A DNA stretch of 64,000 nucleotides from Arthrobacter sp. V1I9. GTDB lineage: Bacteria; Actinomycetota; Actinomycetes; Actinomycetales; Micrococcaceae. The DNA lies in assembly GCF_030817075.1 (NCBI RefSeq), contig NZ_JAUSYU010000001.1:992001-1056000 (forward strand), read 5' to 3'. Position 1 is the first letter of the stretch. Each line of letters begins with the position of its first letter. The position numbers and the translations under genes were made by a program. This document shows positions 4,500 through 37,349 of this stretch, piece after piece. Below the pieces are notes generated by a model. The model saw only the letters and a program-made list of their open reading frames with translations, made no database searches and was not told where the DNA came from.

Positions 4500-5942
4500 A
4501 TGACAACCGTCCCCGTCCGCCCCCCGCTGGTCCGCCGCAGCGACCGCTTCCTCGCGGGTGTGTGCTCCGGCCTAGCCATCCATCTTGGTTGGCCGGTTAA
4601 GAACGTGCGGGTTGCGATGGTCCTGGCCTCGCTGGCCGGCGGGGCCGGCGTCGTTTTCTATGCCTGGCTGTGGATCATGGTGCCAACCGCGGACGAAAGC
4701 GCCCGCCGGCAGGCGCGCCGCCCGGCGTCGCCCATTGCCCCAACTGTGAGCCGCGAGCCCGTGCCCGCCTCCGTTCCCCGGGGAATGGCACCGGCCGGAA
4801 TTGGACCGTCCTTGCGTAGCCCTGGAGCGGTGCCGCCCGGAATGGCCGACGGCGGCCGTGGCGCGTCCGCCGACCCTCCCGGTGCCCGTGGTTACCTATC
4901 GGGCGGGCCGGCTCCCGGACATGCCTCGGAGGCTGGCCGGCCGCCCTTGTTCAGGTTCCGTGAGATGCGGTACGGCAAGGAGATCCTGCTGGGCGTCGGG
5001 CTGCTCCTGGTGGCGGGCATCCTCGTCGCCCAGCTCCTGGGCGTGGACGTTCCGCTGGGCACCCTGATACCGGCGGCTGCAGTTCTCGGCGGCGCCTCAA
5101 TTGCCTGGATGCAGCTGGATGAGACCCGGCGGGCCGGGCTGGTGGACAAGACCAAAGCGGACCAGGCCGGGGGTTGGGCCAGGCTAGCGGCAGGCCTGGC
5201 GCTGGTGGTGGCGGGCGTTCTCGTGATGGTGTCCGGATCGGGTTCGTGGGAACAGACCTGGCTGGCGCTGCTGGCTTCCGTGGCTGTCCTCGGCGGGGTG
5301 GTGCTGGTCCTGCTTCCATGGGCGCTGAAATTCTGGCGGGACCTGGAAGCGGAGCGGGCCGGCAGGATCCGGGAAACCGAGCGGGCCGAGATTGCAGCCC
5401 ACCTGCACGACTCCGTGCTCCAGACGCTGGCACTTATCCAGCGCCGCGCCGCCAATGAGCACGACGTCGTCCGGCTGGCCCGCGCGCAGGAGCGGGAGTT
5501 GCGGGGCTGGCTGTTCGAGGACCCGGGCAAGGACGCCGGGCAGCTGTCGGACCGGATCAAGGCCGCAGCTGCCGAAGTGGAAGACCTGTTAGGCAACGCG
5601 GTCGAGGTGGTCAGTGTGGGAGACACCGCCGTTAGCGAGGGGCATGAGGCGTTGATCCAGGCCAGCCGCGAGGCCATGCTGAACGCTTCCCGCCACGGCG
5701 GCGGGACCGTCTCGGTCTACCTGGAGGCATCCGACGGCCGCGCCGAGGTCTTCATCAAGGACCGGGGCCCCGGCTTCGATCTGCAGGACGTGCCGGAGGA
5801 CAGGCTCGGCGTCCGGGAGTCCATCATCGGCCGGATGAACCGCCACGGCGGCACGGCCACCATCGCCAGCACCAGTGAAGGCACGGAGGTGCGGCTGGGC
5901 TTCCCTGCCGCCCCGCAGGACAGCACGGAAGGCAAACCATGA
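4500..5942 (+). CDS. PspC-fused sensor histidine kinase
   Basis: A 480-residue membrane kinase. An N-terminal PspC domain (RRSDRFLAGVCSGLAIHLGW then a helix to about residue 62) is joined by a Pro/Gly-rich linker to four further hydrophobic segments (about 161-275). The kinase core follows: HisKA_3-type dimerisation motif ERAEIAAHLHDSVLQTL with His303 as expected phosphoacceptor, then an HATPase domain with the N-box NASRHGGG and the G-box DRGPGFD. NarL-family kinases of this build phosphorylate LuxR-type regulators, and one overlaps its 3' end by 4 bp (ATGA). The divergent PspC cluster at 2263-4375 suggests that it monitors membrane or cell-wall stress; the signal is not known. Confidence 0.88.
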   Translation: MTTVPVRPPLVRRSDRFLAGVCSGLAIHLGWPVKNVRVAMVLASLAGGAGVVFYAWLWIMVPTADESARRQARRPASPIAPTVSREPVPASVPRGMAPAGIGPSLRSPGAVPPGMADGGRGASADPPGARGYLSGGPAPGHASEAGRPPLFRFREMRYGKEILLGVGLLLVAGILVAQLLGVDVPLGTLIPAAAVLGGASIAWMQLDETRRAGLVDKTKADQAGGWARLAAGLALVVAGVLVMVSGSGSWEQTWLALLASVAVLGGVVLVLLPWALKFWRDLEAERAGRIRETERAEIAAHLHDSVLQTLALIQRRAANEHDVVRLARAQERELRGWLFEDPGKDAGQLSDRIKAAAAEVEDLLGNAVEVVSVGDTAVSEGHEALIQASREAMLNASRHGGGTVSVYLEASDGRAEVFIKDRGPGFDLQDVPEDRLGVRESIIGRMNRHGGTATIASTSEGTEVRLGFPAAPQDSTEGKP

Positions 5943-6628
5943 ATACAACGCAGGGACCCGGTACAGGACCCGTCCGGACCGCCAGGTCAGCAAGGGTGGT
6001 CATTGTGGACGACCACGCCATCTTCCGCTCAGGCCTGAAGGCCGACCTCGACCCCAGCATCCGCGTGGTGGGGGAGGCAGCGACGGTGGAGCAGGCCATT
6101 GCCGTCATTGGGCAGGAGCGCCCGGACGTGGTGCTGCTGGACGTCCACCTGCCCGGCGGCCTCGGCGGCGGGGGCCGCGAAGTCATTGCCGGTTCCGCTG
6201 CCCTGTTGTCCACCACCAAATTCCTCGCCCTCAGCGTTTCCGACGCGGCCGAGGACGTTGTGGCGGTGATCCGCGCTGGAGCGCGCGGTTACGTCACCAA
6301 AACCATCTCGGGGGCGGAAATCACCGATGCCGTGTACCGGGTTGCCGGCGGGGACGCCGTCTTCTCGCCGCGGCTTGCCGGTTTTGTCCTGGACGCCTTT
6401 GGCACAGCCCCCGCGGACATTGCGGACGACGAACTGGACAAACTTTCCGCCCGGGAGCTGGAGGTCATGCGCCTGATCGCCCGCGGCTACAGCTACAAGG
6501 AAGTGGCAAAGGAGCTCTTCATCAGCATCAAGACGGTGGAAACCCACGTGTCCGCCGTGCTCCGCAAGCTGCAGCTCTCCAGCCGGCACGAACTGACCAA
6601 GTGGGCCGCCGAGCGCCGCCTCCTCTAA
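5939..6628 (+). CDS. LuxR/NarL-type response regulator
   Basis: A 229-residue two-domain regulator. The receiver has acidic D24-D25, the phosphoacceptor D68 in VVLLDVHLPGG and the YVTK lysine. The C-terminal helix-turn-helix carries the LuxR signature LSARELEVMRLIARGYSYKE followed by IKTVETHVSAVLRKL. Its start codon overlaps the stop of the PspC-fused kinase (ATGA), so the two are translationally coupled and form one two-component system. Likely targets are its own operon and the divergent PspC genes, by analogy with LiaSR-type systems. The stop codon is followed after 4 bases by the mirrored repeat element. Confidence 0.9.
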   Translation: MNTTQGPGTGPVRTARSARVVIVDDHAIFRSGLKADLDPSIRVVGEAATVEQAIAVIGQERPDVVLLDVHLPGGLGGGGREVIAGSAALLSTTKFLALSVSDAAEDVVAVIRAGARGYVTKTISGAEITDAVYRVAGGDAVFSPRLAGFVLDAFGTAPADIADDELDKLSARELEVMRLIARGYSYKEVAKELFISIKTVETHVSAVLRKLQLSSRHELTKWAAERRLL

Positions 6629-6632
6629 CCCA

Positions 6633-6766
6633 ACGCTCTCTCACTTAACGCGCGTTTTTCCCCAACGCTCTATCACTTGATGCGGATTAACCCGGAACGC
6701 TCTCTCACTCTCCCTGAAGAAAGTGATAGAGCGTTCGGGTTTTTCCTGCAGGAAGTGAGAGAGCGT
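6633..6766. repeat. mirrored 32-bp-period repeat element, copy 1
   Basis: The 14-base core ACGCTCTCTCACTT or a one-base variant starts at 6633, 6665 and 6697, exactly 32 bp apart. After a 10-base centre (6711-6720) the inverse core AAGTGATAGAGCGT or AAGTGAGAGAGCGT starts at 6721 and 6753, again 32 bp apart. The two innermost copies can form a hairpin. The 18-base linkers are only loosely alike. The element fills the space between two convergent genes, from 4 bases after one stop to 2 bases before the other. The same unit recurs at 37038-37234. Confidence 0.9.
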
Positions 6767-6768
6767 GC

Positions 6769-7986
6769 TTACTGGGCCTTCCCGAGGAAGTCCTGCAGCC
6801 GCTGGACGCCGGTGGCCAGGTCCTCGTCGCCAAGCGCGTACGAAAGGCGCAGGTAGCCTGAGGGCCCGAAAGCCTCGCCCGGAACCACTGCCACCTCAAC
6901 CTCGTCCAGGATCAGGGCTGCGAGTTCGGCGGAGGTCTGCGGCGTGGCGGTGCCGGACGCCGTCGGGAATTCCTTGCCCAGCAGCGCGCGAACGTCCGCA
7001 TAGACGTAGAAGGCGCCCTTCGGCGTCGGGCATTCCACACCTTCAATGGCGTTGAGGCCGGCGACGATGGCCTTGCGGCGCCGGTTGAACGCGACTTTCA
7101 TCTCGTCCACGGCAGTCAGCGGCCCGGACACGGCGGCGAGGGCGGCCATCTGGGGGATGTTGGAGACGTTGGACGTGGCGTGGGACTGCAAGTTCGTGGC
7201 GGCCTTGATGACGTCGGCCGGGCCGATCATCCAGCCCACGCGCCAGCCGGTCATGGCATAGGTCTTGGCCACCCCGTTGAGGATGACAACCTTGTCGCCC
7301 AATTCGGGGGCTGCGGTAGCGATCGAGGTGAAGGGAACGCCGTCGTAGGTCAGGTGCTCGTAGATTTCATCGGTGACGACCCACAGGCCCTTGGCAGCGG
7401 CCCACTTGCCGATTTCCGCCACCTTCTCGGGTGAGTAGACGGATCCGGTGGGGTTCGACGGCGAGACGAACAGCAGGATCTTCGTCCTGTCAGTAACGGC
7501 TGCCTCGAGCTGCTCCACAGTCACCAGGTAGTCCTGCTCCGGGCCGGCAAACACCTCCACCGGCACGCCGCCGGCGAGGCGGATGGCCTCAGGATAGGTG
7601 GTCCAGAACGGGGTGGGAACTATAACTTCGTCGCCCGGATCAACCAAGGTGGCGAAGGTGTTGTAGACCGCCTGCTTGCCGCCGTTGGTCACCAGGACCT
7701 GGGAAGCGTCGACGGCGTAGCCCGAGTCCCGCAGGGTCTTCTCCGCAATGGCCTTCTTCAGCTCGGGCAGCCCGCCGGCGGGGGAGTAGCGGTGGTACTT
7801 CGGCTGGCTGGCCGCTTCGATGGCTGCCTGGACGATGTAGTCCGGGGTGGGAAAGTCGGGTTCACCTGCACCGAAACCAATAACCGGCCGGCCTGCTGCC
7901 TTCAGCGCCTTCGCCTTGGCATCAACGGCAAGGGTTGCGGATTCGGCAATAGCGGAAATGCGCTGGGAAACGCGGGCGGCAGACAT
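6769..7986 (-). CDS. aspartate-type aminotransferase (class I/II, PLP)
   Basis: A 405-residue PLP-dependent class I aminotransferase. It opens with [21 protein letters not shown] and the [10 protein letters not shown] segment typical of the Iγ aspartate aminotransferase subgroup. Other motifs are [10 protein letters not shown] (substrate-binding asparagine), TDEIYEHL (aspartate contacting the pyridine nitrogen), [16 protein letters not shown] with the Schiff-base lysine, and a C-terminal LRLSYA arginine for the substrate carboxylate. The reaction is most likely aspartate plus 2-oxoglutarate to oxaloacetate plus glutamate, but prephenate or kynurenine activity exists in close relatives. The gene is convergent with the response regulator and divergent from the tRNA-Trp/secE region. 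Confidence 0.88.
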
Positions 7987-36216: not shown

Positions 36217-36546
36217 ATGGCAGTAGGATCCAAGGATCTGGCTCCCGCACAGCTGGACGGTTTCGACAACGAGCGTCTCGTTGAAGAACTCCGCAAGGCC
36301 AAGGAAGAGCTGTTCAACCTGCGTTTCCAGTCCGCCACCGGACAGCTGGAGAACCACGGTCGGCTGCGCGCGGTAAAGAAGGACATCGCCCGCATCTACA
36401 CCGTTCTCCGTGAGCGCGAGCTGGGCATTCGTGCCGAGGTTGCCGCACCGGTTGTGGAAGCCAAGGAAGAAAAGAAGTCCAAGAAGGCAGCAACCAAGAA
36501 GGCCGAAAAGGCTGAAACGGTTGAGACCGAGGAGGATGCCAAGTGA
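36217..36546 (+). CDS. rpmC: 50S ribosomal protein L29 with basic/acidic tail
   Basis: A 109-residue L29; the conserved part ([40 protein letters not shown]) ends near residue 70 and an additional tail of about 40 residues rich in Lys, Glu and Ala follows ([17 protein letters not shown]). Most L29 proteins stop at 60-70 residues. L29 lies at the tunnel exit. Its last bases overlap the rpsQ GTG by 4. Confidence 0.94.
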
Positions 36547-36848
36547 GTGAAAAGGACGAGAACGTGACCGAAACTGCTACCGCAGCAACGGCTGAGCAGC
36601 GCGGTTACCGCAAAACGCGTCGCGGCTACGTGGTCTCTGACAAGATGGAAAAGACCATCGTTGTTCAGGTTGAAGACCGCGTGAAGCACGCCCTGTACGG
36701 CAAGGTCATCCGCCGTACCTCCAAGGTCAAGGCACACGACGAAGAGAACACCGCCGGCATCGGCGACCTCGTTGTCATCGCCGAGACCCGTCCGCTGTCC
36801 GCCACCAAGAACTGGCGGCTAGTGGAAATCCTCGAGAAGGCCAAGTAG
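36543..36848 (+). CDS. rpsQ: 30S ribosomal protein S17
   Basis: A 101-residue S17 starting at GTG 36543, overlapping rpmC by GTGA. About 20 extra N-terminal residues ([20 protein letters not shown]) precede the conserved [20 protein letters not shown] core; [14 protein letters not shown] is also typical. S17 binds the 5' domain of 16S rRNA. It is the last gene of the S10 cluster and a hairpin terminator follows. Confidence 0.96.
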
Positions 36849-36906: not shown

Positions 36907-36949
36907 TTAACGGCGGGCCGTCACCCCGATCATGCCCTGGTGAGCGCAC

Positions 36950-37031
36950 GACGGCGACGGGCGCCCTTCTGGGGGATTGGCAGGCAGAGTGGGCCCGAGA
37001 GGCTGCCGTGCGTAATGCCGTCGTCCGTCTT
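36950..37031. repeat. 82-bp direct repeat, left copy
   Basis: It matches 37269-37349 with six mismatches and one gap by hand alignment. Its ends (GACGGCGACGG and CCGTCGTCCGTC) are imperfect inverted repeats. The copies lie on both sides of the 32-bp-period array. Confidence 0.85.
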
Positions 37032-37037
37032 CCTTCG

Positions 37038-37234
37038 ACGCTCTCTCACTTAACGCAGGTTTCTGGCGGACGCTCTCTCACTTTCCTTGAGAAAGTGAGA
37101 GGGCGTCGGCCGAAACGGCGCATCAAGTGAGAGGGCGTCGGCCGAAACGGCGCTACAAGTGAGAGAGCGTCGGCCGAAACGGTGCATCAAGTGAGAGAGC
37201 GTCGGCCGAAACGGTGCATCAAGTGAGAGAGCGT
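37038..37234. repeat. mirrored 32-bp-period repeat array, copy 2
   Basis: ACGCTCTCTCACTT starts at 37038 and 37070; after a 9-base centre the inverse core AAGTGAGAGNGCGT starts at 37093, 37125, 37157, 37189 and 37221, all exactly 32 bp apart. The 18-base linkers of the right arm (CGGCCGAAACGG plus six bases) are nearly identical. The central pair can form a 16-bp stem with a 5-base loop. It has the same core and period as the element at 6633-6766. Confidence 0.92.
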
Positions 37235-37268
37235 TGCTGGAGACCTCACAGGAGCTGATAGGGCGTCC

Positions 37269-37349
37269 GACGGCGGCAGGCGCCCTTCTGGGGGAGTGGC
37301 AGGCAGGGTGGGCCGAGAGGCCGCCGTGCGTAACGCCGTCGTCCGTCTT
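37269..37349. repeat. 82-bp direct repeat, right copy
   Basis: Same orientation as 36950-37031 and about 91% identical by hand alignment; one base shorter. Confidence 0.85.

Follow-up and report, generated by a model that had tools for sequence, protein, structure and literature searches.

Genomic repeats tied to an enzyme are known with HUH transposases. Among the closest described systems are the repetitive extragenic palindromic (REP) elements and the REP doublets forming hairpins (REPINs), which together with REP-associated tyrosine transposases (RAYTs) form 'REPtrons'; in the sections of two papers drawn on here (PMC3116915, PMC3733652), these are dispersed, intergenic inverted repeats, matching copies of which border a conserved enzyme gene of low copy number, where REP types follow the RAYT enzyme and more than one pair sometimes occurs per genome. 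Here we present a family of mirrored repeat arrays from a 64,000-nucleotide stretch of the Arthrobacter sp. V1I9 genome (contig NZ_JAUSYU010000001.1, positions 992,001 to 1,056,000; hereafter the window), together with a Vsr-like endonuclease gene that such arrays bracket elsewhere in the same genome. The results suggest that the arrays and the nuclease of the Arthrobacter group constitute an unrecognised enzyme-plus-repeat system, comparable but unrelated to REP elements. The part of RepRanger (PMC12306157) drawn on here includes one Arthrobacter species in its count table and describes no such family, and the open PubMed Central literature yielded nothing relevant on palindromic repeats of Arthrobacter or on repeats associated with DUF559.

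Phased and mirrored core arrays

The preliminary description of this DNA had reported a 14-base core recurring at 32-bp steps at two places, in 3+2 and 2+5 copies, with a flip of orientation at a central hairpin. All of these cores were located. Array 1 consists of a plus-strand arm (6633-6710) with three cores ACGCTCTMTCACTY at 6633, 6665 and 6697 and a minus-strand arm (6721-6766) with cores at 6721 and 6753, two of the five being exact and three having one mismatch. Array 2 has two plus-strand cores at 37038 and 37070 (arm 37038-37083) and five minus-strand cores at 37093, 37125, 37157, 37189 and 37221 (arm 37093-37234), five exact and two with one mismatch; a degenerate sixth minus-strand core (37253-37266, four mismatches) keeps the 32-bp step. 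Orientation flips at a central hairpin in each case (6695-6736 and 37069-37107), where the core starts lie 24 and 23 bp apart, respectively. Both centres fold on either strand, and array 1 as a whole reaches -67.2 kcal/mol (z -9.1). The window contains eight 32-bp core pairs with at most one mismatch per core, whereas 30 rough dinucleotide shuffles each contain none.

Inspection of the genome searched (G000; 4.05 Mb, one contig) reveals a family larger than had been noted. The 14-mer core with at most one mismatch has 41 matches and a pair of degenerate cores at 32 bp has 28, compared with 0 for the reversed-pattern control in both searches. At least two cores are present in 19 of the 20 fetched genome regions, the remaining region (L032) holding a single core. 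A list of neighbours built by core regardless of spacing, from 100 of the 102 matches, places 31 of 33 same-strand neighbours within 100 bp at a distance of 32 bp, one at 96 and one at 22 among the matches listed. A broader count gives 32 bp for 141 of 150 steps, a figure that is biased because the G058 and G020 loci were chosen by a pattern containing the 32-bp step. Since 32-bp loci are many and, as described below, conserved in sister species, neither random spacing nor confinement to two loci describes the family.

Scanning 65 fetched regions from four genomes scored 72 arrays, of which 47 are mirrored and 25 run in one direction, the scanner used being more permissive at 32-bp and mirrored positions. 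At unbiased thresholds, 27 of 44 mirror centres measure 23 bp and no minus-strand core is followed by a plus-strand core within 100 bp. The expectation that gene context would be intergenic or convergent is borne out: with a home-made gene caller, the arrays are mainly extragenic, with 32 between convergent genes, 30 between co-directional and 8 between divergent genes, one inside a called gene and one undetermined. The core consensus, ACGCNCNNTCAC, is not self-complementary and contains no GTAG; hairpins form at the mirror centre. A palindrome of ~61 bp (TGAACTGGTCCCCGG...CCGGGGACCAGTTCA) occupies the centre of one array (L046; G000:C1:3558815-3558876), and a shorter related piece occurs in another (L044; G000:C1:3110349-3110394); it looks like another small element inserting at array centres.

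Array 1 nearly fills a convergent gap, lying 4 bp from the stop codon of a LuxR-family response regulator gene (5939-6628, plus strand; Pfam GerE and Response_reg) and 2 bp from that of a class I/II aminotransferase gene (6769-7986, minus strand; Pfam Aminotran_1_2). Array 2 lies between two plus-strand genes identified by Pfam, rpsQ (ribosomal protein S17; 36543-36848) and rplN (ribosomal protein L14; 37648-38016). A direct repeat of ~88 bp (ACGACGGC...GCCGTCGT), its copies ~90% alike, flanks array 2 at window positions 36944-37031 and 37263-37349; by eye, two copies are present in array-bearing L142 and L148 and one in array-less L150, and the repeat could be an insertion scar or a separate repeat family. 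An Rfam scan of window positions 6000-38000 returned a tRNA as its sole match, and a plasmid search with array 1 returned none. The arrays were set aside as clustered regularly interspaced short palindromic repeats (CRISPR) because the repeat is 14 bp in a 32-bp step and the arms mirror one another; no cas search was made.

An endonuclease gene between the arms

Beyond the view of the preliminary description, one locus (L047; G000:3609700-3613000) has its arms 1.1 kb apart with a 316-aa gene between them. Two copies of this gene are found in the genome, both outside the window, one at 3.61 Mb beside purU and one at 1.08 Mb beside fhs, and the two differ in their cores. The protein, of ~316 aa, combines a winged-helix-like N-terminal part with a C-terminal nuclease domain of the Vsr/EDxHD type, in which residue 250 is Q rather than E. 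Its Pfam matches (DUF559/MTES_1575) fall at or below cut-off; at L047, where this was inspected, they are the only matches between the arms, with no recognisable transposase. Public records name close homologues DUF559 or endonuclease domain-containing protein, or hypothetical.

Relatives of the protein occur in 61 of 61 genus genomes (E <= 1e-5; distant paralogues counted), and a close homologue is lacking in 81 of 197 genomes of the family. Of 128 relatives from named genomes, the 80 best (Arthrobacter, Pseudarthrobacter, Paenarthrobacter and one labelled Sporosarcina) were fetched, and their 450-bp flanks were inspected for any 11-mer repeated at lag 32 with one mismatch allowed, a method that does not assume the core. 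All 80 homologues have such a repeat in at least one flank and 71 have it in both, compared with none of the 80 gene bodies and only 1-10 of 74-79 loci in each interval beyond 450 bp. L112, an apparent exception under a fixed core matrix, proved by the lag method to have arrays built on ACCCTTCCTCAC in its contig (L219, L253). In nine homologues of lower similarity (L122, L123, L133-L139; 36-59% identity), no lag-32 repeats were seen, hairpins not having been looked for there. With the protein as query, a plasmid search found five records, each under 60% identity, and a phage search found one, at 31.8%.

Other lags also recur in the flanks of the 80 loci (L171-L250), namely 27 (19 upstream, 15 downstream), 60 (11 downstream) and 64. 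Upstream of the gene, the word CTGTGGATAAC is exact in 76 of these loci and present with at most one mismatch in 79, mostly 48-52 nt ahead of the matched start, and it is absent from 699,820 strand-bases of outer flanks. The word contains TTATCCACA on the opposite strand, which we take to be a DnaA box, and may reflect replication-linked expression. Directly 3' of the gene, several loci have a separate hairpin near GACGCTCCCTCACC/GGTGAGGGAGCGTC (e.g. ~L047:1055-1089), whose sequence is largely kept despite diverged array cores and which may be the terminator of the gene or the mark of a mobile unit. The record labelled Sporosarcina beigongshangi, of the Bacillota (L237; contig NZ_JADHDY010000002.1), contains an Arthrobacter-type copy with arrays and falls inside Arthrobacter in the tree; it represents a mislabelled record, contamination or transfer.

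The endonuclease gene is under strong purifying selection and is mostly vertically inherited. The median ratio of nonsynonymous to synonymous substitution rates (dN/dS) is 0.115 across 121 pairs, selected to match in length, share 80-98% identity and have a dS below 2, and 78 of the 80 genes have open frames, the two with inner stops being omitted from both this estimate and the tree. The neighbourhoods of the gene are of several kinds. A tree of 83 proteins accounts for seven labels, the hairpin outgroup included, with six changes, the minimum possible, and places the purU copies in one clade (100/99) nested in the fhs-site copies. The gene has thus moved few times and has otherwise been inherited.

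Cores, spacings and insertion sites among relatives

Two degenerate cores at 32 bp are found in 36 of 61 genus genomes, with one match overall for the reversed control. A looser two-core pattern matches in 28 of 28 genus genomes, selected for known gene-flanking arrays, at 7 to 337 matches each against 0 for the control; the G-numbered and named genome sets overlap and are not independent. Core classes differ by clade (ACGC-TCTC-TCAC, ACGC-CCGC-TCAC, ACGC-CCGG-TCAC, ACGC-GCCA-TCAC, ACCC-TCCC-TCAC and others), each with a preferred 3' extension, and the dispersed and gene-flanking arrays of one genome share a class, as in G055 (ACGCGCGCTCAC), G051 (ACGCCCGGTCAC) and G049 (ACCCTCCCTCACCTTTCG). 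In 27 genomes, most of which contributed one dispersed locus, the similarity between dispersed and flanking cores is 7.04 of 11 variable positions within a genome versus 5.37 for different-genome pairs, and the former value exceeds all 20,000 permutations (best 6.47). A genome's own flanks rank first in 8 of the 27 and among the top three in 17. The comparison omitted two gene loci (L325, L335) and two spare second loci (L349, L350), as well as G015, for which no flank could be scored. Dispersed cores and those flanking the gene show linked variation.

The association extends to other spacings. Nine of nine homologues in genus g24 (L258-L266) have lag-32 repeats on at least one side and six have them on both. 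In genus g7, seven loci show 22-bp arrays (L275), 21-bp arrays (L276, L277, L280), a 19/38-bp array (L279) or single hairpins (L271, L274), and the arrays mirror across the gene. A 21-bp pair of GRGGGGTCA is dispersed in all seven g7 genomes examined, with 3 to 44 matches each, and has no match in G000 or G058; counts are among the lowest in G234 and G163, where the fetched gene copies use other steps. Other relatives have one hairpin of ~60 bp on each side of the gene, and in one such class, one or more copies lying apart from the gene occur in four of five genomes, G003 being the exception. Spacings of 21 and 32 bp amount to two and three B-DNA turns, respectively, the geometry expected if proteins bind next to one another on a single helix face; the helical phasing proposed from the window alone thereby gains 21-22 bp counterparts at several sister-genus loci.

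Orthologous gaps differ in whether they contain an array. Of 29 genomes scored between rpsQ and rplN (L147 was unscorable), 14 contain an array, with gaps of 549-802 bp versus 362-518 bp in the 15 array-less genomes; rpsQ has its own hairpin ahead of the array, the gap edges align poorly and no target duplication was resolved. In genome G003 (L161 and L128), this gap contains an array with 32-bp steps and cores of class CCCCATC, although its closest gene homologue is flanked by single hairpins; that is to say, the G003 array is an orphan. Downstream of purU, 30 genomes divide into 7 with array, gene and array, 4 with a mirrored array lacking the gene and 19 with neither, and by eye the next gene looks like the same PucR-type regulator in the four gene-less and five of the full forms. 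The tree shows a single old insertion at purU, arrays persist beside the gene, and the gene apparently once entered a gap where related genomes have arrays.

A proposed nuclease-coupled repeat system and its closest counterparts

The best reading of these observations is a system of the REP/RAYT kind in which the enzyme is an unrelated nuclease; binding, cutting and mobility are what we infer. That the arrays and the nuclease form one coupled, dispersed repeat system we regard as somewhat more likely than not. The endonuclease protein likely binds the core, in keeping with the protein-binding array put forward in the preliminary description, which we hold to be probable. Cutting by the endonuclease is slightly more likely than not to drive array spread. 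Under this mechanism, a resident conserved nuclease would recognise a clade-specific core. Because the spacing equals whole turns (three for 32 bp, two for 21 bp), the cores lie on one helix face, such that several protein copies could load next to one another on each arm, oriented inward and meeting at the mirrored centre. The nuclease would then nick or cut at or near the hairpin centre, the mirrored centre being a natural cutting place, and repair templated on another array would place arrays at new intergenic sites while keeping cores alike within a genome. Rarely, such repair would bring the gene into an array-holding gap, which would account for the occurrence at one site of forms with and without the gene. 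Weighing against cores that follow the gene, a genome's own flanks rank 27th in G000, 23rd in G031, 11th in G001 and 10th in G030 and G040; in G000 only the fhs copy, which has another core, was scorable.

The main rival, an unlikely one in our judgement, is a domesticated architectural or regulatory array, in which the same protein binds phased cores cooperatively for the host, nuclease activity is lost or incidental and ordinary recombination spreads the arrays. Its purpose could be chromosome organisation, insulation of convergent genes, control of its own gene or a tie to replication via the upstream DnaA-box-like site. Strong purifying selection on a mostly vertical gene fits this rival, as do helical phasing, the 32 of 72 arrays in convergent gaps, the presence of CTGTGGATAAC in 76 of 80 upstream regions and Q for E at residue 250. 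The presence and absence of arrays at rpsQ-rplN (14/29) and purU (11/30), however, are closer to spreading DNA than to fixed sites, and copy number varies widely, from 7 to 337 matches in 28 genomes.

Miniature inverted-repeat transposable elements (MITEs), and insertion sequences whose ends hold multiple transposase-binding sites, have mirrored end arrays and exist as gene-bearing and gene-less copies. The arrays could accordingly be an ordinary MITE family of a lost or unknown insertion sequence, with the endonuclease gene a passenger caught in one copy. The mirrored ends, the gene-less copies and the occurrence at purU of arrays with and without the gene resemble such elements, but a passenger would hardly be bracketed at 80 of 80 loci and several chromosomal sites, with cores tracking the gene clade, nor accompanied by 21-bp arrays or hairpins in other genera; a classical transposase between the arms was not met, though no systematic search was made. 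We consider this reading improbable. Least probable of all is a role of the arrays at the 3' ends of genes as bidirectional terminators or as hairpins that stabilise mRNA, with the 32-bp period and gene association secondary. Arrays do follow stop codons closely, in many cases between convergent genes, and both window arrays fold strongly. Against this, 25 of 72 run in one direction and hence lack a mirrored centre, RNA folding leaves the exact 32- and 21-bp steps unexplained, rpsQ has its own hairpin before the array, and the termination role raised earlier gained no support from a simple terminator scan at the first locus, where window positions 6500-6900 contain no GC hairpin followed immediately by a T run.

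Compared with MITEs and insertion sequences, the system shares mirrored end arrays and copies with and without the gene, yet it has no known transposase, no target duplication was resolved, and the fetched loci show one or two gene-bearing copies per genome, mostly inherited in place. The EDxHD (Vsr-like) homing endonucleases such as I-Bth0305I share the nuclease-domain fold and a gene inserted in a region carrying its presumed target, whereas here no intron or intein is seen, multi-copy arrays remain on both sides as presumed targets and the N-terminal part is winged-helix-like. The DUF559 and REase_MTES_1575 proteins of actinobacteria are linked by weak Pfam matches and public-record names; a difference is that the nine homologues at 36-59% identity showed no lag-32 repeats (hairpins not looked for). 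For part of DUF559, a common family of unknown function, the arrays suggest a possible role.

The likeness to REP/RAYT systems lies in organisation. The conserved, low-copy enzyme gene is flanked by its presumed own repeats (80/80 on at least one side, 71/80 on both), the repeats are mainly extragenic, dispersed, in inverted pairs and of a type that follows the enzyme, and a genome sometimes has more than one enzyme-repeat pair. The enzyme itself differs, being a Vsr-like nuclease, and the unit is neither a palindrome nor GTAG-tagged, its cores instead standing in whole-turn-spaced arrays. Of the proposal of a REP-like element spread by a transposase, REP-like spread is supported and the tyrosine REP-associated transposase is not: Y1_Tnp (PF01797) was found in 0 of 10 genus genomes by a search that was positive in 5 of 14 known genomes. 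Tentatively, and with less confidence than in the coupling itself, Micrococcaceae may have evolved an independent counterpart of REP/RAYT. Its Vsr-like nuclease, preceded by an upstream DnaA-box-like site, would assemble on phased, mirrored arrays and cut their centre during replication, spreading and homogenising its own repeats, with a private enzyme-core pair and two- or three-turn spacing in each lineage. If true, a second, unrelated enzyme class would make enzyme-plus-repeat partnerships a general route of DNA persistence in bacterial genomes, with many natural enzyme-site pairs for studies of DNA recognition and a concrete prediction of one protein, one core and whole-turn spacing. The array-nuclease system works like REP/RAYT without being a member of it.
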